Part shown: positions 25,544-39,281 of the stretch, in pieces | Layout of the letters: each line of letters begins with the position of its first letter | Position numbering within the stretch: position 1 is the stretch's first letter | From: Chondrocystis sp. NIES-4102 | GTDB taxonomy: Bacteria > Cyanobacteriota > Cyanobacteriia > Cyanobacteriales > Xenococcaceae | NCBI GenBank assembly: GCA_002368355.1 | Contig: AP018281.1 | Location: 744,001-808,000, forward strand | DNA: 64,000 nt | Direction of reading: 5' to 3' | Made by a program: the position numbers and the translations under genes | The notes under the pieces: model-generated | Databases searched by the model: none | Told to the model about the DNA's origin: nothing | The model's input: the letters and a program-made list of their open reading frames with translations, nothing else

Positions 25544-26605
25544 ATGAAGGCAAAATTTATTTTCTCTATAACAACATCGCTTTTTATTTTTTTTATAGCA
25601 AATTTGAGTAATTCAACAAGAGAAATTGAAAATTTTAACTACAACCAATCTAACATTGATAGTCATTTAATCAACAAAAAACAAACGCAACAAGTTAAAC
25701 CAGAAACTTTAGTAAAAGATTTTAAAAATGAGACAAGACTAAAAAAGATGGTTAAGATCCAAAATATACCAATAGCACCTCAAGAATCAGAGGAACAGCA
25801 AATATTTCATCAAATTCTTGAAAAAATAATTAATCGTAATATTGCCAATAAGTCTATGGGAGAAATTATGCAAGCTGTTGCTGAAAGTTTTCTTGGTGCT
25901 AAGTATACTGCTGGCTTATTAGATCAGCATGAGCAAGAAACTTTAATAATCTCTCTTGAACAATTTGATTGTTTATTGTTCGTTGAAACTGTATTAGCAC
26001 TTTCTCGTAACATTGCTTTACAAGACTATAGCTATCAAAATTTTGAACAGCATATCATTGATCAAAGATATTGGAATGGCACTCTAAATGGGTATTGCAG
26101 TCGTTTACATTATTTTTCTGAATGGATTTATGATAATCAAAAAAGACAAAATATTAAAGATATTTCTGCTTCTCTTGGTGGCGTATTGCAGTCTAAAAAG
26201 CTTGACTTTATGAGTAAGCATCGTAATTTATATCCACGTTTAATTACTAATAATGCTAACTATCAATGTATTGTTGAAATGGAATCAAATTTAACAAAAG
26301 AAAATATTCCAACCTACTATATTTCTAAACAACATATTAAAAATATTTATAAGCAGTTACAACCAGGAGATATAATTGGTGTTACTACTAATATTACTGG
26401 TCTTGATGTTACTCATACAGGTTTAGTCTATTATACTCCTAATGGTACAATTGGACTGATCCATGCTTCTCCTATTGGTAAAGTTACAATTGCACCTGAT
26501 CTACAAGATTATGTTGAAAAAGTCCTAAATTCTACAGGTATTGTAGTGGCTAGAGTAATAGATCCAAGATCTAATCACTTAAATCAAGACAGCAATTTTC
26601 ATTGA
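25544..26605 (+). CDS. DUF1460 / N-acetylmuramoyl-L-alanine amidase-like secreted protein
   Basis: 353 residues with an N-terminal signal peptide or anchor (about 4-22). The body matches the DUF1460 family, an NlpC/P60-type cysteine-peptidase fold thought to act on peptidoglycan: FLGAKYTAGLLD (about 116-127), LEQFDCLLFVETVLAL with the catalytic Cys at 143, and a late His in DVTHTGLVYY (about residue 287). LQPGDIIGVTT marks the core strand. It is the only rightward gene among five leftward 'SDPIER' paralogues and its stop is one base from the next convergent stop. This suggests the group acts at the cell wall. Confidence 0.8.
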   Translation: MKAKFIFSITTSLFIFFIANLSNSTREIENFNYNQSNIDSHLINKKQTQQVKPETLVKDFKNETRLKKMVKIQNIPIAPQESEEQQIFHQILEKIINRNIANKSMGEIMQAVAESFLGAKYTAGLLDQHEQETLIISLEQFDCLLFVETVLALSRNIALQDYSYQNFEQHIIDQRYWNGTLNGYCSRLHYFSEWIYDNQKRQNIKDISASLGGVLQSKKLDFMSKHRNLYPRLITNNANYQCIVEMESNLTKENIPTYYISKQHIKNIYKQLQPGDIIGVTTNITGLDVTHTGLVYYTPNGTIGLIHASPIGKVTIAPDLQDYVEKVLNSTGIVVARVIDPRSNHLNQDSNFH

Positions 26606-26606
26606 T

Positions 26607-27590
26607 CTAATAATTACAACCACTGGTATTTCTATTTATTTTTAGCCATTCTTGAGCTAAATTTGTCTCTCCTGGAAATATTTTTCTTTCTCTTAATTCA
26701 GGATGTCTTTGATAAAAAAGATAATCAACTATAGCTTCACAATTTCTAATTTTTAGCCATTCTTGTTTTAAAAAAGTTTCGTCAGCACTAATCTTTCTTC
26801 CTCTCAACTCAGGATATCGGCTATAAAAAGTTCTGTCGGCTAATTTATCTATTTGAGCTTGCGGATTATTTATATTAATGGTTTCTTGCTTATGAGAAGA
26901 TGGAATACTAATATTTGTTTCCATTCTAATTGAATCTTCCAATTGCTGTTGGGCTTTTTTTGTGGCTATAATAGCTGCTTGTCTAACTTTTTCTGCTTCT
27001 TCTTTTTCTCTTTGGGCTTTAATTTGTTCTTGTCTAGCTTTTTCTATCTCCTCTTGAGCTTGATAGGCTGCTTGTCTTGCTAATTCTTGTAATCTTGCTT
27101 GTTGCGCTTCCTGTTTAATTTGTTGTGCTTGCTGTTGAGCTAAATTTTTTAGTCTTATTTCTTCTGCTTGTTTGCTCAAACTATAATTAATAATTAATGC
27201 AGTAGCACTCACACAACTAAAGATAATCCCTATAATAAATAGATGCTTACTTGTAATTTTATTATCGCTATTAACAGTAGAATTGAATTGTTGATTTAAG
27301 TTATGTTGCGGTTGACTGTTAATCTTGTTATTTACGCTCGTCGATATTTCTTGTAGATGCTCAACTGAGTTACTGTTATCAGGAGAAAACTCAGATTTTA
27401 ATTCTTCTAATTCTTGCTGTTGTCGTTCATATTCTTCTTGCTGACTTTTTAATCGCTCCAGCTTTTTTATTTTCTTTTCTAATAGCTTTTTATGTTCTAG
27501 TCTTTCAATAGGATCGCTAACTTGAGTTTCTATTTCTTTTAGTTGTTTTTCCAATAGTTTAATATCTCTGGCAATTTTCAATACTGACAT
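26607..27590 (-). CDS. Coiled-coil/TM 'SDPIER' family protein with C-terminal tandem 40-residue repeats
   Basis: 327 residues: N-terminal coiled coil with VSDPIERLEHKKLL (about 24-37), a Ser/Asn/Gln linker, one membrane helix (about 117-137), then a long Gln/Ala/Glu-rich helix (about 140-225). The end carries two copies of a motif, FYSRYPELRGRKI-x6-FLKQEWLKIR and FYQRHPELRERKI-x6-LAQEWLKIN. The shared Tyr/Phe-x-x-Pro-Glu-Leu-x-x-Arg-Lys-Ile and Gln-Glu-Trp-Leu-Lys-Ile positions show a repeated unit. The N-terminal half is nearly identical at DNA level to the gene at 27698-28513. Function unknown; topology suggests the repeats face the periplasm. Confidence 0.7.
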   Translation of the reverse strand: MSVLKIARDIKLLEKQLKEIETQVSDPIERLEHKKLLEKKIKKLERLKSQQEEYERQQQELEELKSEFSPDNSNSVEHLQEISTSVNNKINSQPQHNLNQQFNSTVNSDNKITSKHLFIIGIIFSCVSATALIINYSLSKQAEEIRLKNLAQQQAQQIKQEAQQARLQELARQAAYQAQEEIEKARQEQIKAQREKEEAEKVRQAAIIATKKAQQQLEDSIRMETNISIPSSHKQETININNPQAQIDKLADRTFYSRYPELRGRKISADETFLKQEWLKIRNCEAIVDYLFYQRHPELRERKIFPGETNLAQEWLKINRNTSGCNY

Positions 27591-27693
27591 AAAATATAAG
27601 TCGTGTTAGATATATAATTTTATTATCTGTATTTATTAATTAGTTTCCAAGAAGATAAATCACAAGCTAATAAGATAGCGATCGCTTTGTACT
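27120..27693. repeat. Duplicated block (copy 1) covering promoter and N-terminal half
   Basis: About 570 bases almost identical to 28042-28612. The block includes the 5' half of the paralogue gene, its start and roughly 100 bases upstream ending in AAGATAGCGATCGCTT. Only a handful of substitutions are visible, clustered near the start codon and in the upstream region. Confidence 0.85.
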
Positions 27694-27697
27694 TTTT

Positions 27698-28513
27698 CTA
27701 AAAATACAGTAAATTATGCTGCTTTTGGTAATTTAAAATAACAGTAGCATTGTGTTTTTCAAGTGATGATAATAGGTTATTATCAAATTGTTCAGGTGTA
27801 TAAATTGGATGATACCAAGGTTGTTTATTAAAATATTGCTGCAACCCAATTAAATTAAATTTTCTTCCATGACGTGCATATATTTCATTTCTCATAATGT
27901 CCAATTCCCAAGGTGTTTGATTAATTAAATCTGCTGGGGTAACTTTTCTTTCTGAAAGAAATAGGTACTTTGGAACAGTATTATCTATATCTAAATTCAA
28001 GCCTTGAATTTGTGCTTGTGCTTCTGGTTGTACTTTAATAGCTTGTTGTGCTTGCTGTTGAGCTAAATTTTTTAGTCTTATTTCTTCTGCTTGTTTGCTC
28101 AAACTATAATTAATAATTAATGCAGTAGCACTCACACAACTAAAGATAATCCCTATAATAAATAGATGCTTACTTGTAATTTTATTATCGCTATTAACAG
28201 TAGAATTGAATTGTTGATTTAAGTTATGTTGCGGTTGACTGTTAATCTTGTTATTTACGCTCGTCGATATTTCTTGTAGATGCTCAACTGAGTTACTGTT
28301 ATCAGGAGAAAACTCAGATTTTAATTCTTCTAATTCTTGCTGTTGTCGTTCATATTCTTCTTGCTGACTTTTTAATCGCTCCAGCTTTTTTATTTTCTTT
28401 TCTAATAGCTTTTTATGTTCTAGTCTTTCAATAGGATCGCTAACTTGAGTTTCTATTTCCCTTAGTTGTTTTTCCAATAGTTTAAGCTCTTTGGCGATTT
28501 TCAATACTGACAT
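27698..28513 (-). CDS. Coiled-coil/TM 'SDPIER' family protein with C-terminal YARHG domain
   Basis: 271 residues. Residues 1 to about 155 are almost identical to the neighbour at 26607-27590 (coiled coil, linker and membrane helix at about 117-137). The C-terminal part differs completely: it is a YARHG domain (about 185-260) with LFLSERKVT, LDIMRNEIYARHGRKF and the closing aromatic segment YFNKQPWYHP. YARHG domains are extracytoplasmic modules in many bacteria, often in envelope proteins; their ligand is not established. The two genes are a recent duplication of one N-terminal half with different C-terminal modules. Confidence 0.78.
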   Translation of the reverse strand: MSVLKIAKELKLLEKQLREIETQVSDPIERLEHKKLLEKKIKKLERLKSQQEEYERQQQELEELKSEFSPDNSNSVEHLQEISTSVNNKINSQPQHNLNQQFNSTVNSDNKITSKHLFIIGIIFSCVSATALIINYSLSKQAEEIRLKNLAQQQAQQAIKVQPEAQAQIQGLNLDIDNTVPKYLFLSERKVTPADLINQTPWELDIMRNEIYARHGRKFNLIGLQQYFNKQPWYHPIYTPEQFDNNLLSSLEKHNATVILNYQKQHNLLYF

Positions 28514-28612
28514 AAAATATAAGCCGTGTTATATATATAATTTTATTATCTGTATTTACTAATTAGTTTCCAAGAAGATAAATCACAAGGAAATAAGATA
28601 GCGATCGCTTGT
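28042..28612. repeat. Duplicated block (copy 2) covering promoter and N-terminal half
   Basis: Partner of 27120-27693. Homology stops abruptly inside the post-membrane helix (around the codons for Ala-Gln-Gln) and upstream just past a GCGATCGC octamer, so the breakpoints are sharp. Confidence 0.85.
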
Positions 28613-28615
28613 TCA

Positions 28616-28842
28616 TTTGCTCCTAATTATAATATGTTACTCTTAGCAGTTTTAAATAACAGTATTATTGTACTTTTCAATTGATAACGATTTGGTTTTT
28701 TGAGGTGTATATATTTAATTTATAATAATCTCTAATTACCAAGGTGTTTGACTGATTAAATATACTGAGGTTACTTTCCTTATTAAGAAAAATAATTATT
28801 TGGGAACAACATTATTTAAACTTTAATAGCTATTTGGGTTTC
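28616..28842 (-). pseudogene. Decayed YARHG-domain remnant
   Basis: Non-coding now, but stretches still align on the minus strand with the YARHG-encoding part of the neighbouring gene at about 27715-27990. The clearest are the segments around 28738-28760 (compare CCAAGGTGTTTGATTAATTA in the intact gene), 28766-28800 and 28800-28815. Internal deletions and stop codons remove the YARHG core. It lies just downstream of the truncated paralogue at 28843-29286 and explains why that protein lacks a C-terminal domain. Confidence 0.65.
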
Positions 28843-29286
28843 CTATTTAACTTGTTGAGTTTCTTTTATTTCCCCTTCATTTATTGTTTGTGGAGTCAAA
28901 TTAAAATTAATAATTAAAGCAGTTGCGATCGCATAACTAACGATAATCCCTATAATAATCGAATACTTGCGTTTAATTTTAGGATTAGGTGAAGCAACAT
29001 AATCTAATTGTTGATTAAAATTGGGTTGTGGGGGAGTATTAATACGCTTACTTGCGATCGGCGCGCTTTTTTGTTTTGAAATAACTGAGTAACTATTATC
29101 CTGAAAAAACTCAGATTTTAAATCTTCTAACTCTTGCTGACTTTTATATTGTGTTAGTTTTTTTATTTTCTTTTCTAATAGCTTTTTTTGTTCAAGTCTT
29201 TCGATAGGATCGCTAATCTTGCTTGGTAATTCACTTAGTTGTTTTTCTAATAATTCAATGTCTCGTTGTATTTTTGATACTGACAT
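28843..29286 (-). CDS. Truncated coiled-coil/TM 'SDPIER' family protein
   Basis: 147 residues: N-terminal coiled coil with ISDPIERLEQKKLLEKK (about 24-40), a linker and a membrane helix (about 110-130), then stop. It has no outward domain, unlike its siblings. The DNA beyond its stop holds decayed YARHG sequence, so this is probably the surviving N-terminal half of a once longer protein. It may still make an anchored coiled-coil protein. A 38-bp dispersed repeat abuts the start codon directly upstream. Confidence 0.6.
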   Translation of the reverse strand: MSVSKIQRDIELLEKQLSELPSKISDPIERLEQKKLLEKKIKKLTQYKSQQELEDLKSEFFQDNSYSVISKQKSAPIASKRINTPPQPNFNQQLDYVASPNPKIKRKYSIIIGIIVSYAIATALIINFNLTPQTINEGEIKETQQVK

Positions 29287-29445: not shown

Positions 29446-30843
29446 TTATTGATCTTTTTGAACTGCATAACAGAAACGCCCAATAGTTTTTGTCGCCTCA
29501 TCCATAGAATTAAATGTCATATTTCTAAGACTATTCATAAAGTTAGATAAGTTAGCGGTTTTTCCGCCATCATCTCCACTATTTGTATTCCATTCACTCC
29601 ACCAGTTAGGCTTTTGTAAATCTTTAGCAACCACATCTACTTTAAAGTAGTAAATATTAGCTTCAGAAATCACATCAGGATTAATAGTTGTGAAAAATTT
29701 TAGTTTATTTTCGGCAATTTCCCACTCGCTTAAATTTAAAGCTTTAGTAGCAGTAGGTACTTGTTTAAATTCTTGCTTATTAATCTTATTAAAAGCACTA
29801 GCATCGACTGTAAGTTTTAAATCATTAGAATCTACTGCCAATGTATAATTTAGTTGTTTAATGGGAACTTCATATTTTAAATCCAAAACCTCAGTATGAT
29901 TATTTTTAATTTTTAACAACTCTATGGGTTGATTATTTTTTTCTACTGATACATTGCCATTGTGTAGTTGGTTGGGTGTAAACAAATCTGGTGAAATATT
30001 ATCAGGTTCAGTAAGATAGGAAACATCTGCTAATAAATGGTTTGGGGAAAAAATTACAAAATTACTGCGCTCGCTTAAACTACCTTGTTCTTTGGATAAT
30101 TTATCGAAGGAATTAGCTATATCTTGATAGTTACCTAAAAATAATATATAAAATGGGCGATACTGCTTACTACTTTTGCCTTGGGTGCTATAACTAAATT
30201 TTCTATTGGCATTAGTTGCAGAATAAACAGTGCCATCAAACTCACTTTTTACTCCCCAAATACCAACAGCATAGTTTTCATCTTTATTATTAAAATAGTT
30301 TTCTCTAATTTTATTAGCAATTAAATTAACATCTCCATCATTTTGGGCTAAATCAGTAACTATTATGCTTAAAGCGTCACTATTTTTTGGCTTGGTTATC
30401 AAAGAACTCAAATCACTAGAAACAGCAGGTAATTTTGCGTTGCTACCGTTATAAAATTCAGGTTTTTTAGCTTTTATAAATTCTGAGCGAGTTAGTTCTT
30501 TTGCTTGATGTTGATAATCACCAGAACGATAATATTTAATAGTTGATTGTGAACGATTATTAATTGAACCTAAAGTATTATCCAACAATTCTAATGCTTG
30601 GATATAGGAACTATTATCTTGATTAACATACCCTAACATCGACCCAGAACCATCAATATTTATACTGATACTTAAGGGATTGCTAAATATTTCTGGCTGT
30701 GGCTTTGGCTGTAATTGACAATATAAATTAATTTTATCTTCCTTAACTTCTGTTCCTTCTATTTGTCCTTGAGCAACAGTAACGCAACCAGATAACAAAG
30801 CTGCTATAGCAAAATAAATAATATTTCTTGGAGTAAAAAACAT
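29446..30843 (-). CDS. von Willebrand factor A-like lipoprotein
   Basis: 465 residues. A lipoprotein signal ends in LLSGC with the lipidated Cys at 20. A vWA-type fold follows: ISINIDGSGSMLGY contains the MIDAS Asp-x-Ser-x-Ser at D64/S66/S68, and SIIVTDLAQNDG (about residue 160) supplies the later metal-side Asp. The remaining C-terminal 250 residues look like beta-rich domains without a name I recognise. It is probably anchored in the envelope and binds a protein partner through a metal-dependent surface. It diverges from the four-helix membrane/tubulin-like/actin-like gene group with 135 bases between, suggesting a shared regulatory region and function. Confidence 0.75.
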   Translation of the reverse strand: MFFTPRNIIYFAIAALLSGCVTVAQGQIEGTEVKEDKINLYCQLQPKPQPEIFSNPLSISINIDGSGSMLGYVNQDNSSYIQALELLDNTLGSINNRSQSTIKYYRSGDYQHQAKELTRSEFIKAKKPEFYNGSNAKLPAVSSDLSSLITKPKNSDALSIIVTDLAQNDGDVNLIANKIRENYFNNKDENYAVGIWGVKSEFDGTVYSATNANRKFSYSTQGKSSKQYRPFYILFLGNYQDIANSFDKLSKEQGSLSERSNFVIFSPNHLLADVSYLTEPDNISPDLFTPNQLHNGNVSVEKNNQPIELLKIKNNHTEVLDLKYEVPIKQLNYTLAVDSNDLKLTVDASAFNKINKQEFKQVPTATKALNLSEWEIAENKLKFFTTINPDVISEANIYYFKVDVVAKDLQKPNWWSEWNTNSGDDGGKTANLSNFMNSLRNMTFNSMDEATKTIGRFCYAVQKDQ

Positions 30844-30978
30844 ATAAGTTGTTAAAAATAAGTTTATTGACTGAGGATTCTCTCAGAGAAAATACCTAAA
30901 AAATACAATATTTTCAATCAAAACTTTATAAGTTACATTGTAATTAACTATTATTTATTATGGCAATAACTAAAACAT
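30844..30978. promoter_or_regulatory. Divergent promoter region of the cytoskeletal-type locus
   Basis: 135 AT-rich bases between the leftward vWA lipoprotein gene and the rightward membrane/tubulin-like group. Promoters for both must lie here. I cannot assign individual boxes with confidence. Confidence 0.45.
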
Positions 30979-31449
30979 ATGAAATCGGGAGAAATAACTA
31001 GGCTAATCATTTGCTTAATTATAGGAGTCTTGATAATTTATCTGATTCAACCAAAAATTTATGATTTAAGAATTGTCAGGTTAACTGATATAGAAAATAT
31101 TCAAGAATGGATTGGTAGTTCTTATATGAAACAAGCCAGTATTGTTTTTGCAATATCCTTAATATCTTTAATCTTTTGGTGTATTTCAGGCTTAAGAGCA
31201 AAAGCTAATGGTCATGAATTAAAAACTTGGCAAGGTATTTGGTACGCCCTTTTATTCTTTAACGTTTTAAGTATTTTTATTGCGGTTTTTCTCAATAAAG
31301 TTAGTGATGATGCGATTCTATCCTCGATATTTTTCTTACTATTTGATGTCCTCTGGATTTTTTGGTTAGGAACAGCCTTAAGTTCACCTAATCTATTTAT
31401 GTATTTACCCCCAGGATCTGGAACAATTCGCCGAGTTTTTGGAGATTAA
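30979..31449 (+). CDS. Four-helix integral membrane protein
   Basis: 156 residues with four predicted membrane helices (about 7-23, 52-70, 85-107, 112-134). A cytoplasmic-looking tail, NLFMYLPPGSGTIRRVFGD, ends it. I recognise no domain family. Its stop codon is five bases before the start of the tubulin-like gene, so the two are translated from one message. It is a plausible membrane anchor for the cytoskeletal-type proteins that follow. Confidence 0.65.
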   Translation: MKSGEITRLIICLIIGVLIIYLIQPKIYDLRIVRLTDIENIQEWIGSSYMKQASIVFAISLISLIFWCISGLRAKANGHELKTWQGIWYALLFFNVLSIFIAVFLNKVSDDAILSSIFFLLFDVLWIFWLGTALSSPNLFMYLPPGSGTIRRVFGD

Positions 31450-31453
31450 ATTT

Positions 31454-32941
31454 ATGACAATTTATTTAGTTGGCATTGGTGGTAGTGGTGCAAAATGTGT
31501 AGAATCCGTGGTACATTTGGCATCAGTAGGTTTATTTTCTCAATCACCAATCAAGGTTTTATTTGTTGATGCAGATGAAAGTAATGGTAATGTAGAAAGA
31601 GCTAGAAATAGCCTTAAGATTCAAACAGAATGTCAGAAAATATTATCGGGAATTGAGCGACAAGATTGTCCTTGGATGCAAACTCAAATCAAATCCTTTG
31701 ATCTGTGGTCGCCCTTTGCTAAAAATAGTTTAAATAAAGAATTAAGTGCTTTTTTCAACTATAATAATCTTAAGCAAAGTGAACCAGCTTTAGCCAATCT
31801 TTTTGATGTTTTATATACCGATCGCGAAAAACAAGAAAACTTAGATGTTGGCTTTCGTGGTAGACCCGCTATTGGGGCTGCGGTAATGAGTCAGGTAGAT
31901 TTGAACCGTTTAGATGAAGAACCTTGGGGAACTTTTATCGAACAAATTAAAGCGGATGTCAACGAAGGTAGACAACCAAAAGTATTGTTATGTGGTTCAA
32001 TTTTTGGTGGCACAGGTGCATCAGGATTACCAACAATTGCCCGTTTAATTGCTAACAAACTCAACGATCTAAATATTAGAGAAAGAGTTAAAATCGGGTC
32101 GGTGTTTATATTACCTTATTTTGGTTTTACTGCGCCTACGGGGGAAAGTGAGAACGGCATTTATGCCCAGTCAGATAAATTTTTACTCAATACAGAAGCA
32201 GCACTACGTTATTACGTTACCCAAGCCCAAGGTATTTTTGATACCGTCTATTTATTAGGCAATGAAAACCTCGCTAGGGTAAACTTTAGTATTGGTAAAA
32301 ACGAACAACGTAATCAACCGCATTTTATCGAATTATATGCAGCCCTAGCAGCCAGACATTTCTTAACCGAAAACCATCCACAACAAGAAACCATAGTCCT
32401 ATTATCACGATCGCGATCGCAATATATAAACTGGGATGATATCCCTGATGGTGGAAATGTGCAGAAAATTTTAGGCAGTACAACAAGATTCGCCTATACT
32501 TGGCTTGCTAGTATTGCACCAGAATTAGTTAATGCCAAACAGGAAGGCTTTAGAACTTATATCAGATGTGCGCCCTGGCTAACAAGATTTTACGATACCG
32601 ATCCTAAAAAACCGCTTCAATTTGATAGTGAAAAACAACAAAATGCGATCGCCATTATCAATAATTGGTGTAAAGATTATTTACGTTGGTTGCAAGAAAT
32701 TCATCAATGCCAAAGCGATCAAGTTCAACTATTCAAACAAAATGTTTTTGCCCAAATAGATAAACTTGAGGGAACAAAACTACAAGATTTACTTTTAGGA
32801 GATCATCGGGATGCCAAAACCAGACAACGCAACGATGAACCCACCAGAATCAAAAATAGTCTCAATACCAAAAACGTACTAGGTAGCAATAACGGCACAG
32901 TAGGATTAGCCCAAGCCCTATATCAAGCTTGTCAGCTTTAG
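31454..32941 (+). CDS. Tubulin/FtsZ-like GTPase family protein
   Basis: 495 residues. The start YLVGIGGSGAKCVESV (residues 4-19) is the tubulin-type T1 loop. VLFVDADESN (35-44) matches the T2/T3 region, and GSIFGGTGASG (181-191) is the diagnostic T4 glycine loop of the tubulin/FtsZ superfamily. FRGRPAIGAAVM precedes it. It is longer than FtsZ and fits the large bacterial 'tubulin-like' (tubulin_2) families rather than FtsZ or TubZ. The ATG at 31454 has GGAG nine bases upstream; a TTG at 31439 overlapping the previous gene is rejected. It should bind GTP and may polymerise. Next to it lies an actin-fold ATPase gene. Confidence 0.82.
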   Translation: MTIYLVGIGGSGAKCVESVVHLASVGLFSQSPIKVLFVDADESNGNVERARNSLKIQTECQKILSGIERQDCPWMQTQIKSFDLWSPFAKNSLNKELSAFFNYNNLKQSEPALANLFDVLYTDREKQENLDVGFRGRPAIGAAVMSQVDLNRLDEEPWGTFIEQIKADVNEGRQPKVLLCGSIFGGTGASGLPTIARLIANKLNDLNIRERVKIGSVFILPYFGFTAPTGESENGIYAQSDKFLLNTEAALRYYVTQAQGIFDTVYLLGNENLARVNFSIGKNEQRNQPHFIELYAALAARHFLTENHPQQETIVLLSRSRSQYINWDDIPDGGNVQKILGSTTRFAYTWLASIAPELVNAKQEGFRTYIRCAPWLTRFYDTDPKKPLQFDSEKQQNAIAIINNWCKDYLRWLQEIHQCQSDQVQLFKQNVFAQIDKLEGTKLQDLLLGDHRDAKTRQRNDEPTRIKNSLNTKNVLGSNNGTVGLAQALYQACQL

Positions 32942-32997
32942 TTGTTATTAATAGCTATTACAAATATCTCTACAAATTAAAACCTTAAACATGACCT

Positions 32998-35900
32998 ATG
33001 GCTAATCTAATATTACCAAAACTAAAAACGGGTACAGATGTTCGACCCCCAGAAAAAGAAGGAATTTGGACAAGCTTAGAATCAAAGTCGGCATTTCAAA
33101 ATGTAGCAAGCAGTTTAGATTACCAGGCTTCGGGAGAAACCAAAAGTGTAAGTTCTGTCCCCACTATGTGGGCGCGCCCCCTATCAATAGAGATGGCATT
33201 ACATAATAAAAGCTATCCCATTCGTAGAGAAATGGTGGCACAATGGCAGGGAATGTTAGCTGCTGTTGCCTTAGCCGAAGTTAGAAGATTTCCTTTAACC
33301 GCCCAATTAGTAGATTTAAATAAACTACGTCAACAAAATCCTTTCAGTCGGGCATTATACGAACTGTTACCCAACCCTGTTAATGTTCTCTACACTCTTG
33401 ATGGTAATAATCCTTGGCAGGAAGTATATGTTTTCTTATGGAATAATAAACCCGTAGGCATGACTTCCCCTAGTACGATAGTTGCCTCTTCAGAAGAAGG
33501 AAATTGGGCAGGTTTACCCTGGTGGAATCAGGAAACCAAGTGTTTAGAATCACCCCTGGGTGGTAATCACCTCAACGAAAACGAAAAAGCCTTATTGTGG
33601 CGGTGGTTAGAAAACCTAAGTACATCTCTGCATCAATCCAGCTATCAAGGAAAACCCAGGGCGATCGATGAAATTAGCGGGTTAATCAACGAATTTCGCG
33701 ATAAATTGGGTTCATATCCCAATCAAGCCCTAAGTTTGAGTACTAACCCCCAGTTTTTTGGTGTATCTCTCAATCGCGGGGTATTAAATGGTATTAATTA
33801 TCCTGCCAAAGCAGAAGCCCAACCATCTAATGTTAAATTGATTGCTAGTTCGAGTTTAGTAGGTAAAGTCCCAGACTTACTAATTTTAGATCCAGATCTA
33901 GCAGAAGCCTGGGGGAAATCACCGCAAAATATCTGGATACATCAAGATCAAACCTTAGCATCCCTACGCTTAGAAGATTTAAAAACAGGTAAAACCATCT
34001 GGCAAAATGTGCGCTGGATCGAATCTAAGGATTTATTTTTACCAGAATTAACTTTTATAGATACAGAAGATGCCCTACCTGGTGGTTATTTACCCCCCGA
34101 AAACCAACCCCTAATCTTCAATAAAAAAAGAATTACTCCCCTACTTCCCCTCAATAATATCCTGCTGGAATATTTCACCCCAGAAGATCTCATTCGTCGC
34201 CTCAATGTGACTCCTCTCAATAGTAGCGAGGGTGCATTTATTAGAATTGAATTAGATTTACCCCTCTCAGGTAGTAATAACCAGCCTCAAAATTATCGTA
34301 TCTATCGCGACTATCTTTTAAAAGAAGAAAACGCCCTAAGTGATGGTGTACCAATTTTAGAAGTTTGGCCCCATTTCCAGGCGCAAGGTTGGCAAGAATA
34401 CTATGGTTTCTATTACGATGCAGCTTTAGGGGAAGAAACATTTCAAGTCAGTTTCCCACAAGCAAAAGAACCTCATGTCTTTCAACAGGGTAGGGGGAAT
34501 TATCAACTAACTAGACTCGATCAATATCCGAACCATATTTTGTGTCAAAGTCAGACTCGTCAGCCCTATGGTTTAATTCTACTCAAAACCCCACCGAGGA
34601 TTGATTTAACTGGTTCTTGGCGTGTGGGGATAGATTTCGGGACTTCTTTTACCAATATTTATGTTAACCGTAGAGGGACAATTGAGCCTTTATCTTTGGA
34701 AACCCTACACCATAAAGTAACAGAGGCGGATATCGAAACTCGTACACCAGTACTATTTGAATATTTTATTCCCGAAAACTTTCTTCCCTCAGAAAAACCC
34801 TTACCCCTATCTAGTATTTTGACTACCAGGGGGAGAACTAATTGCGCTGAAGGTAAGGAACGGGTTTTATTCGATGGACGTATTTTTAATGTCGGTTCTG
34901 ACAGTTTTAAAAATAATGTTGATTGGATAGAAATAGATCTTAAATGGGATAATTTTGTCCCTAACCGTCTATTTTTGGAACATTTAGCCTTACATATCTC
35001 TGCAATTGCCATCAGTAAAGGGATTCAAGAGATCCAATGGTGTTTATCCTATCCTTCGGCTTTTTCTAAGGGTGACCTCCGTAGATATGCTAGAACCTGG
35101 CAAGATATAACAGATAAATTGAACGCCTCTACTGGGATAAAACATATATGTCCAGAACAAGATAATTTAAACTATTTCCGCACAGAAAGTTTAGCTTTTG
35201 CGCAATATTTCGCCGACCGAGAAGAATATAATCTGGTTCGCAGTACTTGTATTGATATTGGTGGTGGAACTTCTGATATTTCTATCTGGGAAAACAATGA
35301 ATTAATACACCAGTGTTCAGTTAGGTTAGCAGGTCGTCAATTAATTTCGCAATTGTTTGAGGTTAATATTGATTTTCTCTGTAAAAGCTTTCAAGTAGAT
35401 CCTGGATCTTGGAAAGGTTTAAAACAAGAACGTTTTTACGCTCAATTCGACAATTTATTGCGATCAAGAAGTGAAGAATGGTTGAGAGATAAAATTAAAA
35501 ACTTTGATAAGGACTCAGAGTTTCAAGGCTTAGTCCGTTTAATTGCTTTGGGGACAGCAGGGCTATATTACTATGTGGGTATTCTCCTAAAAGTACTTCA
35601 TGCTGAGGGTAAATATAGCGCAGACGAAATAACACCTACTTATGTTGGTGGTAATGGTTCTCGTTTACTAAATTGGCTAGATAATAGTGGTACTTTTGAT
35701 CGCAATTCTGGAATTAACGAACTATTTAGTTATATGTTAAGTAGGGGTTCAGGCTTTGAAGACACGGAAGAATTAACTCGCCTCAGCCAAAAACCCAAGG
35801 ATGAAGTAGCTTGTGGTTTAGTTCTCAATGATACACGCCTCAAAGGACTAACAAAAAAACAAAGAGATCCTTTAATTGCAGGGGAAGTATGCCAAATTAA

Positions 35901-36246
35901 CGGCGAGACAATTGAGTATGACAGTCGCCTGGAGTGGGAAGACACCATTAAAGATTTTAAAATACCCGAACTTAGTCAGTTATTTACCTTTGTCGATGAA
36001 TTTAATTTAGGTATCCAAGAATTAGAGTTAGAAGATATTAAACCTATGCCTCAACACCAGCGAGGAAAAGGTTTAAATGCAGAATATAAAGCAAAACTTT
36101 ATCGAGATACCAAAAGAGAGTTAGATGCAATGCTGCTTAAAGAATTTAAAAAAGGTGATGCGGAAGATATTCGCCTAGATGCACCGTTTATTTTAAGTCT
36201 AAAAGCTCTTTTAAAGGTATTAGCTATGGAATGGGCTGATAAATAG
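32998..36246 (+). CDS. Large protein with C-terminal actin/Hsp70-like ATPase domain
   Basis: 1082 residues, one of the largest proteins in the window. The first ~540 residues match nothing I can name (mixed alpha/beta, Trp-rich, no membrane helices). From about 542 an actin-fold ATPase begins: VGIDFGTSFTNIYVN (543-557) is phosphate loop 1, CIDIGGGTSDISIW (751-764) phosphate loop 2, and YVGGNGSRLLNWL (882-894) the adenosine motif. The gapped spacing and absence of an Hsp70 substrate domain suggest a specialised actin-like protein. It lies 56 bases after the tubulin-like gene in the same direction. Function is inferred only from context: nucleotide-driven assembly or remodelling at the envelope. 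Confidence 0.78.
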   Translation: MANLILPKLKTGTDVRPPEKEGIWTSLESKSAFQNVASSLDYQASGETKSVSSVPTMWARPLSIEMALHNKSYPIRREMVAQWQGMLAAVALAEVRRFPLTAQLVDLNKLRQQNPFSRALYELLPNPVNVLYTLDGNNPWQEVYVFLWNNKPVGMTSPSTIVASSEEGNWAGLPWWNQETKCLESPLGGNHLNENEKALLWRWLENLSTSLHQSSYQGKPRAIDEISGLINEFRDKLGSYPNQALSLSTNPQFFGVSLNRGVLNGINYPAKAEAQPSNVKLIASSSLVGKVPDLLILDPDLAEAWGKSPQNIWIHQDQTLASLRLEDLKTGKTIWQNVRWIESKDLFLPELTFIDTEDALPGGYLPPENQPLIFNKKRITPLLPLNNILLEYFTPEDLIRRLNVTPLNSSEGAFIRIELDLPLSGSNNQPQNYRIYRDYLLKEENALSDGVPILEVWPHFQAQGWQEYYGFYYDAALGEETFQVSFPQAKEPHVFQQGRGNYQLTRLDQYPNHILCQSQTRQPYGLILLKTPPRIDLTGSWRVGIDFGTSFTNIYVNRRGTIEPLSLETLHHKVTEADIETRTPVLFEYFIPENFLPSEKPLPLSSILTTRGRTNCAEGKERVLFDGRIFNVGSDSFKNNVDWIEIDLKWDNFVPNRLFLEHLALHISAIAISKGIQEIQWCLSYPSAFSKGDLRRYARTWQDITDKLNASTGIKHICPEQDNLNYFRTESLAFAQYFADREEYNLVRSTCIDIGGGTSDISIWENNELIHQCSVRLAGRQLISQLFEVNIDFLCKSFQVDPGSWKGLKQERFYAQFDNLLRSRSEEWLRDKIKNFDKDSEFQGLVRLIALGTAGLYYYVGILLKVLHAEGKYSADEITPTYVGGNGSRLLNWLDNSGTFDRNSGINELFSYMLSRGSGFEDTEELTRLSQKPKDEVACGLVLNDTRLKGLTKKQRDPLIAGEVCQINGETIEYDSRLEWEDTIKDFKIPELSQLFTFVDEFNLGIQELELEDIKPMPQHQRGKGLNAEYKAKLYRDTKRELDAMLLKEFKKGDAEDIRLDAPFILSLKALLKVLAMEWADK

Positions 36247-36370
36247 TGATCCTTTATACGTCTAATCATTCTGTTTAAGAATTATGAAGTGAGAGGCAAT
36301 TTATTTGATGCAAACCACTTCATAAGTCTACTTATTTTACTTATATCCATATTTATTGTTAAGAACAATT

Positions 36371-37303
36371 ATGTTGAAGTGTCCAGCTTGCAAAACCACA
36401 TACAAAGAAGAGGTACATACTTGTAAAAGATGTAATTTATCAGAGAATGATATTAAATATATCGCTCAAATAAATCCTAATAATCCAGTCCTAACAACTT
36501 GTATTCCATTTCTTATAAATACTATAAAGCGACTTAAAGAAAATAATTATCATAATCAAATATTATCTAAAATTCCAGAAATAGAAATAAAACTGGAACA
36601 AATGACAACTAATTATGGGCAAGTTGTAGAAACAATTGGAAAATTGGAAAATATCGTTTTGAATTTGCAAGATAAAATTGAAAATCCCAGCAAAGATAAT
36701 TCTAATAATATAGATATACAAAAAAAATCTGATTTTTATATAGATGCTGAATCAGTAAAATTACATTCAAATGATTTAACTGACTCTACTGATGAAGATA
36801 GTTTATATAGCCAAGATCAAGATAATACAGTTACTTTGGCTGCTCAAACTTTAATTAATCAAGTAGATAACCTTCAGGATAATAATTCTTTTATTAAAAA
36901 TGACATTTCAGTCTTGCAAAATAATGAGATTCAACTTCCTCAATTTGTCCAACAATACAATATGGATAAAAATATATTTTGTGAAAATGTAATATCTACA
37001 GTTTTAGAAACACAAGAAAGTGTAGACAATCGTTTAGCAGGTCGTGGAGAATTGATTTTTTTCTCAAATACAAATAAAGGTAAGTATTGGATAGTTAAAG
37101 AATCTGAAAATTATTATTTAGTTCCTCATGCAAAGATAAGCATCAATGAGCATACTAAACGATATACTCTAGCAAATCTCTTTGAATGTAATGAATGCAA
37201 CTCAGAGGATTATAGTTTTAAATTAATTCAAGCAGCCAAAGTACTTAAAGTAAATTCCGACTTATGGCAATTAGAGAAAAAAGGAAAACTAGAATTTTAT
37301 TAA
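36371..37303 (+). CDS. Zinc-ribbon protein with C-terminal repeated 'YWIV/LVP' domain
   Basis: 310 residues from ATG 36371 (a TTG 15 bases upstream is weaker). N-terminal zinc ribbon: CPAC at 4-7 and CKRC at 18-21. A helical region (about 30-110) and an acidic Asn/Asp/Ser-rich linker follow. The C-terminal ~100 residues have GKYWIV, YYLVPHAKI, YTLANLFE, FKLIQAAKV and WQLEKKGKLEFY. The same pattern occurs twice in the next protein, so this is a real domain, though I know no name for it. The next gene starts seven bases downstream. Confidence 0.65.
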   Translation: MLKCPACKTTYKEEVHTCKRCNLSENDIKYIAQINPNNPVLTTCIPFLINTIKRLKENNYHNQILSKIPEIEIKLEQMTTNYGQVVETIGKLENIVLNLQDKIENPSKDNSNNIDIQKKSDFYIDAESVKLHSNDLTDSTDEDSLYSQDQDNTVTLAAQTLINQVDNLQDNNSFIKNDISVLQNNEIQLPQFVQQYNMDKNIFCENVISTVLETQESVDNRLAGRGELIFFSNTNKGKYWIVKESENYYLVPHAKISINEHTKRYTLANLFECNECNSEDYSFKLIQAAKVLKVNSDLWQLEKKGKLEFY

Positions 37304-37310
37304 ATATTTT

Positions 37311-39095
37311 ATGACTCAAGCAAATAAAAACAATACAGTTGTGACACAGGTATTTATAGATAAACTGATTGATAAAATTGGGAATATCTTAAAAGAACAA
37401 CACGCACTACAAGAAAGCGATCGCGAACAAACGGAAGTTATAGAATCTTTGTTAGAAAAGTTAACAAGTCTTGAATATAATTTTGAGGAATTAACTAAAT
37501 CCTTGGCTTTGGGTAGTTATCCTCTAAAATTGGCACGCTCAATTAAAGTAGCAGAATCAACTATTACCCCAAAAATTGTACCTATTCCTATTAGTAAATC
37601 CCAATTAATTACTACATATAATGAAATATCAGCCTTACTCTCAGGTTATATAATTCCTGTAACAATAACACCAGATAGCTATCGCAATTCCAATCCAGAA
37701 AATCTAGTTTTAGAAACAACTATTAAAGGAAATTATTGGGCGATCGCTACTGTGGAAGAGCAACAATATAAGTATTGGCTTGTACCTAATAGTAATATTA
37801 ATTTCAATATCTATAAATTAAAAACTATTGAAAGTTTATTCGAGTTAAGAGGCAACCCTAATTCAAAAACTGCTGATTTTATCTTACAAGAGCCTGCAAT
37901 TCTTTCTTTATTACCTAATAATCAACAATGGCAATTACTTCAGCCTGGAATTCTCTTTTTTGGCAATAAATTACAATCTATTTCACCCCCAACATCACAA
38001 CCTGAAAATAGAATTGATGAACAACAAGATAAAATAAATAAACAAATGTTATCTAGTTTAACTACACTAGAAAAAACCATAGCTCAATTAACAAGTAATA
38101 TTACACAACTTCAAGCCCAAACAGAAATATCACAAAAAACATATCAACGCGATCGACAACAATGGTTAGGAGAAAAATATATACTTCAAAATGAAATGCG
38201 CCAAATTACTATGGCTCAATCTCCACCAAATAATTTAAATAATGAGCAAGCTATAGTTCAACTAACAAGTAACATTAAGGAACTTCAAGCCCAGGTTGAA
38301 ATATCACAAAAAACCTATCAACGCGATCGACAACAATGGTTAGGAGAAAAACAAATACTTCAAGAGCAAATACAACAAATTACGCTCACTCAATCTCCAC
38401 CAGATAATTTAAATAATGAGCAAGCTATAGTTCAACTAACAAGTAACATTAAGGAACTTCAAGCCCAGGTTGAAATATCACAAAAAACCTATCAACGCGA
38501 TCGACAACAATGGTTAGGAGAAAAACAAATACTTCAAGAGCAAATACAACAAATTACTCTTGCTCAATCTCCACCAAATAATTCAATTAATGAAAACAGT
38601 AAGGCTGCGGATCAAATAAGTTCTGCTGATGCCCCATTCACTCAAAATTATACTACCAAATCTGAGTCTAATCAAAACAATCAAAACCAATCTAATAATA
38701 CAGTTGATTTAAAAAATATAATCTCTCAATTCAGACAAGTATATAGTCAAGATCAACAATTAATAATAGATAAAATAGTCGCTAAAGTCTCTATCAGTTT
38801 AGACACCCTATTCAAAATCACCTTTGGTAAAATAGATATAGTTATTTTAGAAAAAAGCTTAGATAATAAATATTGGATTATCGATTATTTAGGTGTCTAC
38901 TTATTAATTCCCAGTGACATAAAACACATAACCGAAGCCAAAGAAACATCATTAACTGTTGCCAAAATCTTATTTGATCTAGTTGGATATTATCCTCAAT
39001 ACACGAGCTTCGATTTAATCAAACCTGCAATAGTAACTAAGCACTCAACCAACCAGTGGAAACTACAAGAAAAAGGTAAATTTAATTTCTACTAA
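37311..39095 (+). CDS. Coiled-coil protein with two 'YWIV/LVP' domains and a tandem 58-residue repeat
   Basis: 594 residues, soluble. Order: N-terminal helix, first copy of the domain (about 95-225, with GNYWAIAT, KYWLVPNSN, IESLFE and WQLLQPGILFF), a central coiled coil (about 240-440), a Ser/Asn-rich linker, and a second copy at the C-terminus (about 490-594, with NKYWII, VYLLIPSDI and WKLQEKGKFNFY). The coiled coil contains three successive copies of a 58-residue unit; two are almost identical in DNA. The related C-terminal domain in the preceding zinc-ribbon protein suggests the two bind the same partner, possibly the cytoskeletal-type proteins upstream; this is inference. Confidence 0.65.
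   Translation: MTQANKNNTVVTQVFIDKLIDKIGNILKEQHALQESDREQTEVIESLLEKLTSLEYNFEELTKSLALGSYPLKLARSIKVAESTITPKIVPIPISKSQLITTYNEISALLSGYIIPVTITPDSYRNSNPENLVLETTIKGNYWAIATVEEQQYKYWLVPNSNINFNIYKLKTIESLFELRGNPNSKTADFILQEPAILSLLPNNQQWQLLQPGILFFGNKLQSISPPTSQPENRIDEQQDKINKQMLSSLTTLEKTIAQLTSNITQLQAQTEISQKTYQRDRQQWLGEKYILQNEMRQITMAQSPPNNLNNEQAIVQLTSNIKELQAQVEISQKTYQRDRQQWLGEKQILQEQIQQITLTQSPPDNLNNEQAIVQLTSNIKELQAQVEISQKTYQRDRQQWLGEKQILQEQIQQITLAQSPPNNSINENSKAADQISSADAPFTQNYTTKSESNQNNQNQSNNTVDLKNIISQFRQVYSQDQQLIIDKIVAKVSISLDTLFKITFGKIDIVILEKSLDNKYWIIDYLGVYLLIPSDIKHITEAKETSLTVAKILFDLVGYYPQYTSFDLIKPAIVTKHSTNQWKLQEKGKFNFY
38071..38586 (+). repeat. Three in-gene tandem repeats, period 174 bp
   Basis: Units start near 38071, 38239 and 38413. 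The last two differ by only a few bases and are 174 bases apart (58 codons); the first is more diverged. Each encodes QLTSNI..LQAQ.EISQKTY followed by QRDRQQWLGEK, a heptad-rich coiled coil. Length variation between strains would be expected. Confidence 0.85.
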
Positions 39096-39281
39096 AGATA
39101 TAACTAGTAATAAGTAACAAGCTATAAAAAAATATCTCTTATTAATTAATTTGCTTTTATACCTATTCTTTAACTAAAAAAAGCATTTTTCTCTTACTGA
39201 CTCCTACTACAAATCTACCTACTACCCAAACCCTCACTACCTTCCTATTCCCTATTCCTGACTCCTGACTCCTGTCTTCTT

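Follow-up and report, generated by a model that had tools for sequence, protein, structure and literature searches.

FtsZl1 operons encode a divergent tubulin together with a vWA-type partner in the majority of cases and an OmpA-domain partner in several genomes, and Makarova and Koonin propose a role in membrane remodelling for them (PMC2875224). The GAP1-N2 systems of Kaur et al. 2020, which are GTPase-centric conflict systems, have a DO-GTPase and GAP1 at their core, with tubulin and HSP70 as themes that do not overlap and that belong to firmicutes and actinobacteria; the same source presents the MoxR-vWA (VMAP/iSTAND) ternary systems as predicted conflict systems (PMC7159879). Zorya is an anti-phage system (PMC11890865), and Tubulin_2 proteins have been treated as a sparse group and excluded from the main trees (PMC9871819). 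In this work a locus of the cyanobacterium Chondrocystis sp. NIES-4102 is described in which genes for a tubulin-like and an actin-like protein lie side by side. It is located in a stretch of 64,000 nt (positions 744,001-808,000 of contig AP018281.1), which as a whole will be called the window. To our knowledge, tubulin-fold and actin-fold nucleoside triphosphatases (NTPases) are seldom joined in one gene set. The locus comprises six genes whose set and order are conserved well beyond the genus. We tentatively favour the view that they specify an envelope-anchored complex of two NTPases, which would most likely serve a triggered conflict or stress response and not a routine cytoskeleton.

The core of the locus consists of a lipoprotein gene on the minus strand that diverges from a plus-strand run of genes for a membrane protein, the tubulin-like protein and the actin-like protein (Table 1). 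An earlier, sequence-only reading of the window had placed these genes in the same positions, order and orientation, and the gene coordinates bear this out. The membrane protein and tubulin genes are separated by 4 bases, the tubulin and actin genes by 56. The conserved ATG start gives a tubulin-like protein of 495 amino acids (aa), while the list of open reading frames (ORFs) begins at a TTG 15 bases earlier; the fifth gene, X1, may start further upstream, at a TTG at position 36356. The same reading had regarded the group as one of four genes. Its core stands, but its end had to be moved, as the module continues beyond the actin-like gene with X1 and X2 and spans positions 29446-39095. DNA homology to a same-genus locus (Myxosarcina sp. 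record, L080) covers window positions 29449-39096 with gaps only inside the last two genes, and upstream of the module the matches to this record are limited to three short ones of 114-210 bases. The genes flanking the module in the window are dispersed over at least ten contigs of the same-genus draft, which has 130 contigs, while the six genes remain together. Because the flanks are scattered in this way, the break in homology at the module edge reflects general rearrangement and not mobility, and recent insertion of a mobile cassette was rejected.

Occurrence of the genes was followed in two sets of sequences. Of 292 sampled genomes of the cyanobacterial phylum, 21 have the tubulin-like gene. 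The actin-like gene occurs in these 21 and in two more (23 in total). Twenty of the 21 genomes carry it on the contig of the tubulin gene, downstream and in the same orientation, and one (G111) has the two genes on separate contigs. Further, 451 stretches of genome contigs encode a relative, of which the best 80 (L080-L159) were analysed. All of these but L158 had a called tubulin ORF (79 loci), and counts refer to those loci with enough sequence on the side needed. The two sets overlap in genomes (L080 is the contig of L053) and are not independent. Of 78 loci among the best 80 with room for it, 75 have the actin-like gene after the tubulin gene in the same orientation (71 within 500 bases), and 73 of 78 have the membrane protein gene before the tubulin gene. 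A lipoprotein gene occurs in 56 of 68 loci, and at least one gene with the C-terminal domain of X1 and X2 described below in 62 of 64. Twenty of the best 80 loci are non-cyanobacterial, belonging by their record titles to Poribacteria, Acidobacteria, Nitrospirae, KSB1 and Aminicenantes, and these five phyla again show the gene order lipoprotein, four-helix protein, tubulin, actin. The lipoprotein gene is divergent in 32 of the 39 cyanobacterial loci that have it (co-directional in seven) and co-directional in all 17 non-cyanobacterial loci. The cyanobacterial counts include two records titled Chloroflexaceae (L120) and Euryarchaeota (L153); the copy in L153 groups with cyanobacterial rows in the tubulin tree, and both copies, which are cyanobacterial-like, are probably binning errors. 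Among the four core proteins, pairwise distances are correlated (r 0.82-0.96, 53 loci), as is expected of any vertically inherited genes. The neighbourhood survey proposed with the sequence-only reading found the four genes to be tightly co-conserved across phyla. In one acidobacterial operon (L131:4827-9959) a gene for an RHS-repeat protein of 1710 aa lies between the membrane protein gene and the tubulin gene.

Alignments of the family members contained 20 of 25 long actin-like proteins (A2; five fused or divergent ones were excluded), 19 of 20 sequences each (A3 and A4), 49 rows (A5; the window sequence plus 48 of 75 eligible ones) and 45 rows (A6; the window sequence plus 44 of 67 eligible ones). 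The tubulin-like protein has the motifs GIGGSGAK (residues 7-14) and GSIFGGTGASG (residues 181-191) for which it had initially been recognised. Thirteen of these 19 positions are invariant among 22 homologues and 11 among 49, and G9, G10, G12 and FGGTGA (184-189) are invariant across the 49 aligned rows. The Pfam family Tubulin_2 (PF13809) matched the whole protein with 26.5 bits, compared to a gathering cut-off of 27, and with 18.2 bits in the genome scan; two relatives (in genomes G109 and G035) exceed the cut-off. An AlphaFold model was built from 49 aligned sequences, with a mean predicted local distance difference test score (pLDDT) of 85.9 and a predicted template modelling score (pTM) of 0.90. 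It matched FtsZ, CetZ and tubulin structures with Z scores of 14.5-16.1, the best being CetZ1 (4b46; Z 16.1, root mean square deviation (rmsd) 3.3, 206 residues aligned). All 50 structure matches listed are FtsZ, CetZ or tubulin by title and span about residues 1-341; the aligned ranges stop at about residues 302-347, and in this model the C-terminal domain of tubulin/FtsZ is without a match. By eye, no T7 catalytic acidic motif could be assigned, and neither the tubulin profile nor that of the lipoprotein gave a match when searched against PDB sequences. The model predicts a GTPase domain fold of the FtsZ/tubulin superfamily with T1 and T4 (GGTGxG) loops, in agreement with the original designation, and model and motifs together predict binding of GTP.

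In the actin-like protein the motifs DFGTSFTN (546-553), DIGGGTSD (753-760) and an adenosine motif, GGNGSR (884-889), were located. Across 45 homologues there is no variation at D546, E730, D753, G755, G756, D760, G884 and G885. The best structure match of its model (45 sequences; pLDDT 89.2, pTM 0.79) was MreB (4czk) over residues 539-945 (Z 20.1, rmsd 3.5, 280 residues aligned); MamK, FtsA, actin and DnaK/BiP were among the further matches, the rows of which cover residues 538-954. The second half of this 1082-aa protein, read as actin-like from its motifs, is thus predicted to contain an actin/MreB-type domain with the two-lobed ATPase fold of the actin/Hsp70 group and with phosphate-1, phosphate-2 and adenosine motifs, and ATP binding is predicted on the same grounds. 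While the predicted fold and the phosphate loops are those of MreB, MamK and FtsA, the 540-aa N-terminal half, the tail and the operon context differ, and identity in the aligned regions is 12-17%. The N-terminal 540 residues, which had been left without a name, remain so, as the fold search of the whole model was filled by matches to the actin domain. A sequence match of this half to RPB5 (E 0.0033) is regarded as chance. Membership in PF07520, which we take to be the SrfB family, was rejected as there was no Pfam match at E values up to 1.

Five loci (L056, L094, L112, L060 and L087) encode a second actin-like protein that aligns to the window protein from residue 323-344 onwards. These five copies are devoid of the phosphate-2 glycines and of an equivalent of E730, and most of them also of the phosphate-1 motif; judged by these residues, they look like catalytically dead partners. 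The second genes lie near the active one (for example L056:14442-16640, L060:3948-6878 and L087:16928-19912). A fused actin-like protein of Westiellopsis deviates at several of the same nucleotide-site motifs.

A lipobox pattern was detected in 16 of 19 members of the lipoprotein family and a Dx[ST]xS motif in 18 of 19, and export of the protein is predicted from models and motifs. By a hydropathy scan, 18 of the 19 proteins of the membrane protein family, including that of the window, have four predicted membrane segments, and the remaining one has three. Both predictions speak for the proposed anchoring of the system at the envelope. The description of the lipoprotein as a vWA protein with a metal ion-dependent adhesion site (MIDAS) holds in part: lipobox and MIDAS-like DGSGS are present, but the window protein is left unnamed by Pfam, and the vWA label, taken from motif and position, is a weak one.

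X1 and X2 have a C-terminal domain, here termed XCT, that is also encoded by the gene following the actin-like gene in other phyla. A profile built solely from the final 115 residues of 17 non-cyanobacterial proteins finds X1 (E 1.9e-10) and X2 (E 5.1e-17); the reverse profile, made from seven cyanobacterial proteins, finds 13 proteins of other phyla, and the two one-sided profiles align with a probability of 99.2. X2 has two matches to the domain (independent E values 1.1e-46 and 1.3e-34, obtained with a profile seeded partly with X1). A broader profile, seeded with X1 of the window, two other cyanobacterial proteins and six from other phyla and iterated over coiled-coil regions, found 203 proteins in 87 of 108 stretches; as coiled coils may inflate this number, it was checked with the one-sided C-terminal profiles. 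PADLOC gave no match for X1, and for X2 only Cas2 and JAB models matched, across a short stretch of apparent coiled coil.

Table 1. Genes, domains and intergenic region of the six-gene module (positions in the window)
Feature	Position	Strand	Remarks
vWA-type lipoprotein	29446-30843	-	465 aa; lipobox LSGC (Cys20), MIDAS-like DGSGS 64-68, TDL 163-165
divergent intergenic region, 135 bases	30844-30978	.	from gene coordinates; promoters presumably located here
four-helix membrane protein	30979-31449	+	156 aa; hydropathy scan
tubulin/FtsZ-fold protein (predicted)	31454-32941	+	495 aa; GTPase domain residues 1-341 = 31454-32476
actin-fold ATPase protein (predicted model)	32998-36246	+	1082 aa; unnamed N-terminal half and C-terminal tail
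actin/MreB-like domain (predicted), residues 538-954 of the 1082-aa protein	34609-35859	+	structure matches of the model
X1	36371-37303	+	N-terminal CxxC...CxxC ribbon-like stretch and coiled coil (by eye), C-terminal XCT domain
X2	37311-39095	+	two XCT matches; coiled coil (by eye)

The non-cyanobacterial operons extend further into genes for a putative ion motor. All 14 loci with room for it encode a long-tailed MotA-like protein (about 600-800 aa), and 12 of 13 encode a MotB-like protein with an OmpA domain. Pfam recognised OmpA in MotB-like proteins with E values of 2.9e-11 and 9.1e-11 and MotA_ExbB weakly in MotA-like proteins (one of three above the cut-off), and PADLOC matches in these operons are to ZorA and ZorB. 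An aspartate in the membrane segment, Asp22, is invariant in all nine aligned MotB-like proteins. By these profile matches, a motor pair is predicted for the relatives. Near four cyanobacterial loci (Snowella-like L126, Synechococcus-like L141, L146 and L157) a divergent MotA/MotB-like pair was found, recognised by profile in L126, L141 and L157 and by reading and alignment in L146; a partial MotB was read in L124.

A profile of the cyanobacterial MotB-like proteins matched 49 of the 292 genomes at E 1e-6, namely 11 of the 21 with the tubulin-like gene and 38 of the 271 others. In 16 genomes the coordinates place a MotB-like match at most 5 kb from a classical FtsZl1 gene and not beside the tubulin-actin system. 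Nine cyanobacterial FtsZl1 loci were inspected, and a MotA/MotB-like pair is present in five of them (L190, L192, L193, L195 and L197, in the order FtsZl1, MotA-like, MotB-like), an arrangement that points to an ion motor as part of FtsZl1 modules. The actin-like, four-helix and lipoprotein genes of the tubulin-actin system all lacked a match in these nine loci, and XCT gave four weak matches (E 5e-6 to 3e-3). The genome of the window itself has a classical FtsZl1-MotA-MotB locus at contig positions 1099000-1105300 (L190:8468-15226), in which the FtsZl1 frame is broken and spread over three ORFs; the vWA-type gene ahead of it appears, by eye, to be cut. A second MotA/MotB-like pair without a tubulin-like gene nearby is located at contig positions 3678700-3680000 (L191).

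Links to conflict systems were found in some of the relatives. Two loci, L072 and L076, encode fusions of the actin-like module with a caspase domain (Peptidase_C14); in one relative this domain stands in place of the first 260 actin-like residues, and L076 also has a lipoprotein-type gene and a second actin-like gene. In Phormidium (L058), genes for iSTAND, a MoxR-type AAA protein (AAA_5) and a CoxE-like vWA protein (VWA_CoxE) are located between the tubulin and actin genes, and homologous AAA and vWA genes occupy the same place in Westiellopsis (L103). The actin-like proteins of both genera have gained an extra N-terminal domain. Twelve of 98 genomes encode this domain, and every one of the 12 loci fetched has it either next to a CoxE-like vWA protein or fused to one; in these two genera the actin-like protein thus takes the effector slot, which is filled by other proteins in the MoxR-vWA ternary systems. 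Finally, AAA_35 genes lie inside two operons, fused to WD40 repeats in L082 and followed in L083 by a gene that appears WD40-like by eye.

The triggered conflict or stress response is favoured because relatives show a caspase fusion, a MoxR-vWA insertion and a ZorAB-like motor. In this mechanism, the lipoprotein would face the periplasm and sense or bind something via its MIDAS-like site, and the four-helix protein would relay the signal across the cytoplasmic membrane. On the inner side, the tubulin-fold GTPase and the actin-fold ATPase would assemble on the four-helix protein in a nucleotide-dependent manner, with the X proteins as connectors presenting their conserved C-terminal domain. In other phyla and a few cyanobacteria, an ion motor of the MotA/MotB-ZorA/ZorB type with a peptidoglycan-binding domain would be part of the complex, so that in many lineages the motor may power or anchor the assembly, which would then switch on a conflict or stress output. 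In this picture the localisation of the proteins, the formation of a complex, its trigger and output, and a role in defence are inferred. A more specific version is rather unlikely as it stands: GTPase and ATPase (in some cases with a dead actin copy) would co-assemble on the membrane, signal via the MIDAS lipoprotein, often be coupled to a peptidoglycan-anchored motor, and in this way act as a threshold trigger of anti-phage defence or cell death.

Several observations weigh against a conflict function. The links to effectors come from few loci, and in L072 and L076 the tubulin-like gene is not adjacent to the caspase fusion. No conflict effector gene was found at the window locus, and none of the four core proteins is named by PADLOC. 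Nine of the ten flanking genes are named by Pfam and are mostly of the housekeeping type (M48 peptidase, KDPG aldolase, SelO, URO-D, photolyase); PADLOC gave no convincing match among the ten, the sole one (mad3/mad8) being an ABC ATPase, and a defence island is not seen in them by either search. The motor pair is likewise absent at the window locus. The MotB profile matches two of 41 cyanobacterial loci with enough sequence, and in ten of the 21 tubulin-positive genomes there is no MotB match at E 1e-6, from which it follows that the motor is dispensable or replaced there. The ZorA matches are partly due to coiled coils, as other coiled-coil models match too. As to the lipoprotein, Pfam VWA_2 matches one of 19 family members weakly (E 0.07), none of five non-cyanobacterial members matches a Pfam vWA model at E 0.01, and profile comparison with the vWA proteins of FtsZl1 operons gave no match. 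Lastly, the tubulin tree largely follows phyla.

The main rival explanation, which we regard as rather unlikely, is a specialised cytoskeleton for remodelling of membrane or envelope, in which tubulin- and actin-like filaments, tethered by the four-helix protein, shape or divide a membrane compartment. It draws on the relationship to FtsZl1, whose profile aligns over the N-terminal domain only (probability 96.4, E 1.1e-9), on the divergent tubulin GTPase domain of both and on similar types of partners, with a candidate vWA-type protein and, in the non-cyanobacterial relatives, an OmpA protein (PMC2875224). By profile the gene set is clearly related to FtsZl1, but protein size, Pfam score and gene content set it apart. 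Where FtsZl1 was intact in the loci inspected, it measured 1048-1124 aa, and a typical length of about 1000 aa with a coiled coil and a helical C-terminal domain is not reached by the 495-aa protein. The window system also stays below the FtsZl1/PF13809 cut-off and, according to Pfam, has no OmpA-domain gene among its six genes; its linked Dx[ST]xS lipoprotein gene is a candidate for the vWA partner. In its accessible part, the FtsZl1 description names no actin-like component (PMC2875224). Membrane anchors, housekeeping surroundings and the phylum-faithful tubulin tree are likewise compatible with remodelling. However, the sparse presence of the system in cyanobacterial genomes speaks against an essential function in shape, and the caspase and MoxR-vWA associations would not be expected; with the C-terminal domain of the tubulin fold unmatched, formation of ordinary protofilaments is unproven.

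Still less probable is a non-polymerising, chaperone-like platform, in which the Hsp70-like actin-fold protein and a tubulin-fold GTP switch load or regulate the lipoprotein or the motor. The matches of the actin domain to DnaK/BiP, the exchange of the first residues for a caspase domain and the resemblance of the degenerate second copies to regulatory pseudo-ATPases would fit such a platform. The top structure matches, MreB and MamK, are filament formers, with other families within a few Z units, and no substrate-binding domain was recognised. Partitioning of DNA or plasmids by filaments of the TubZ/ParM type is disfavoured and very improbable: tubulin and actin folds serve this purpose elsewhere, but the locus is situated on a contig of 4.5 Mb, its membrane and lipoprotein partners are conserved, and Pfam names no DNA-binding adaptor among the six genes. 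That the genes are chance neighbours without a joint function is excluded by an order kept in six phyla (by record titles) and in a scrambled same-genus genome, and no point in its favour was found.

Compared with described conflict systems, the locus shows likenesses and differences in each case. With Zorya, the related operons have in common the MotA/MotB-like pair with long tail and OmpA domain, but a ZorA/ZorB pair is not among the six window genes. Zorya systems have ZorC and ZorD or ZorE as further components, and PADLOC matched none of these in the six window proteins. We know of no counterpart of the tubulin and actin proteins in Zorya, and PADLOC likewise gives none. The GAP1-N2 systems resemble the locus in having tubulin-type, vWA and HSP70-family proteins near membranes and predicted NTP-dependent assemblies (PMC7159879), but Pfam names no P-loop GTPase in the six window genes (no GAP1 model was tested by name). 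The position of the actin-like gene after MoxR-type AAA and CoxE-like vWA genes recalls the MoxR-vWA systems; this gene pair is absent among the six window genes and was found in Phormidium and Westiellopsis only among the loci read. The locus had been put forward as a candidate for an undescribed system. For the combination of genes this mostly stands as far as a literature search tells, which gave no recognised description of the gene set (most subscription papers lay outside the search); a term search in one further paper found neither tubulin, FtsZ nor vWA (PMC12505986). Clear precedents, and the nearest kinds so far described, are however the FtsZl1-vWA-OmpA operons (PMC2875224) and the tubulin/HSP70/vWA conflict systems (PMC7159879).

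Just beyond the lipoprotein gene, positions 26607-29286 of the window contain three tandem paralogous genes on the minus strand. Their products have a coiled-coil-like N-terminus in common, and one of them ends in a YARHG domain. The paralogues have no protein cluster in common with the other loci compared, and a DNA match of 131 bases occurs upstream in L080. A gene for an AmiA-like N-acetylmuramoyl-alanine amidase is located at 25544-26605 on the plus strand, a few kb from the lipoprotein gene.

The conserved tubulin-actin operon with membrane and lipoprotein partners, joined in relatives by a stator-type motor, offers a testable case of coupling between NTPases and the cell envelope. The OmpA partner of FtsZl1 operons is recast as a MotB-like protein, with a MotA-like neighbour in five of nine cyanobacterial FtsZl1 loci, and FtsZl1 modules, the tubulin-actin system and Zorya-type motors are thereby linked. 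If the more specific reading as a threshold trigger were true, two cytoskeletal superfamilies and a rotary-type motor would be combined in one conflict system.

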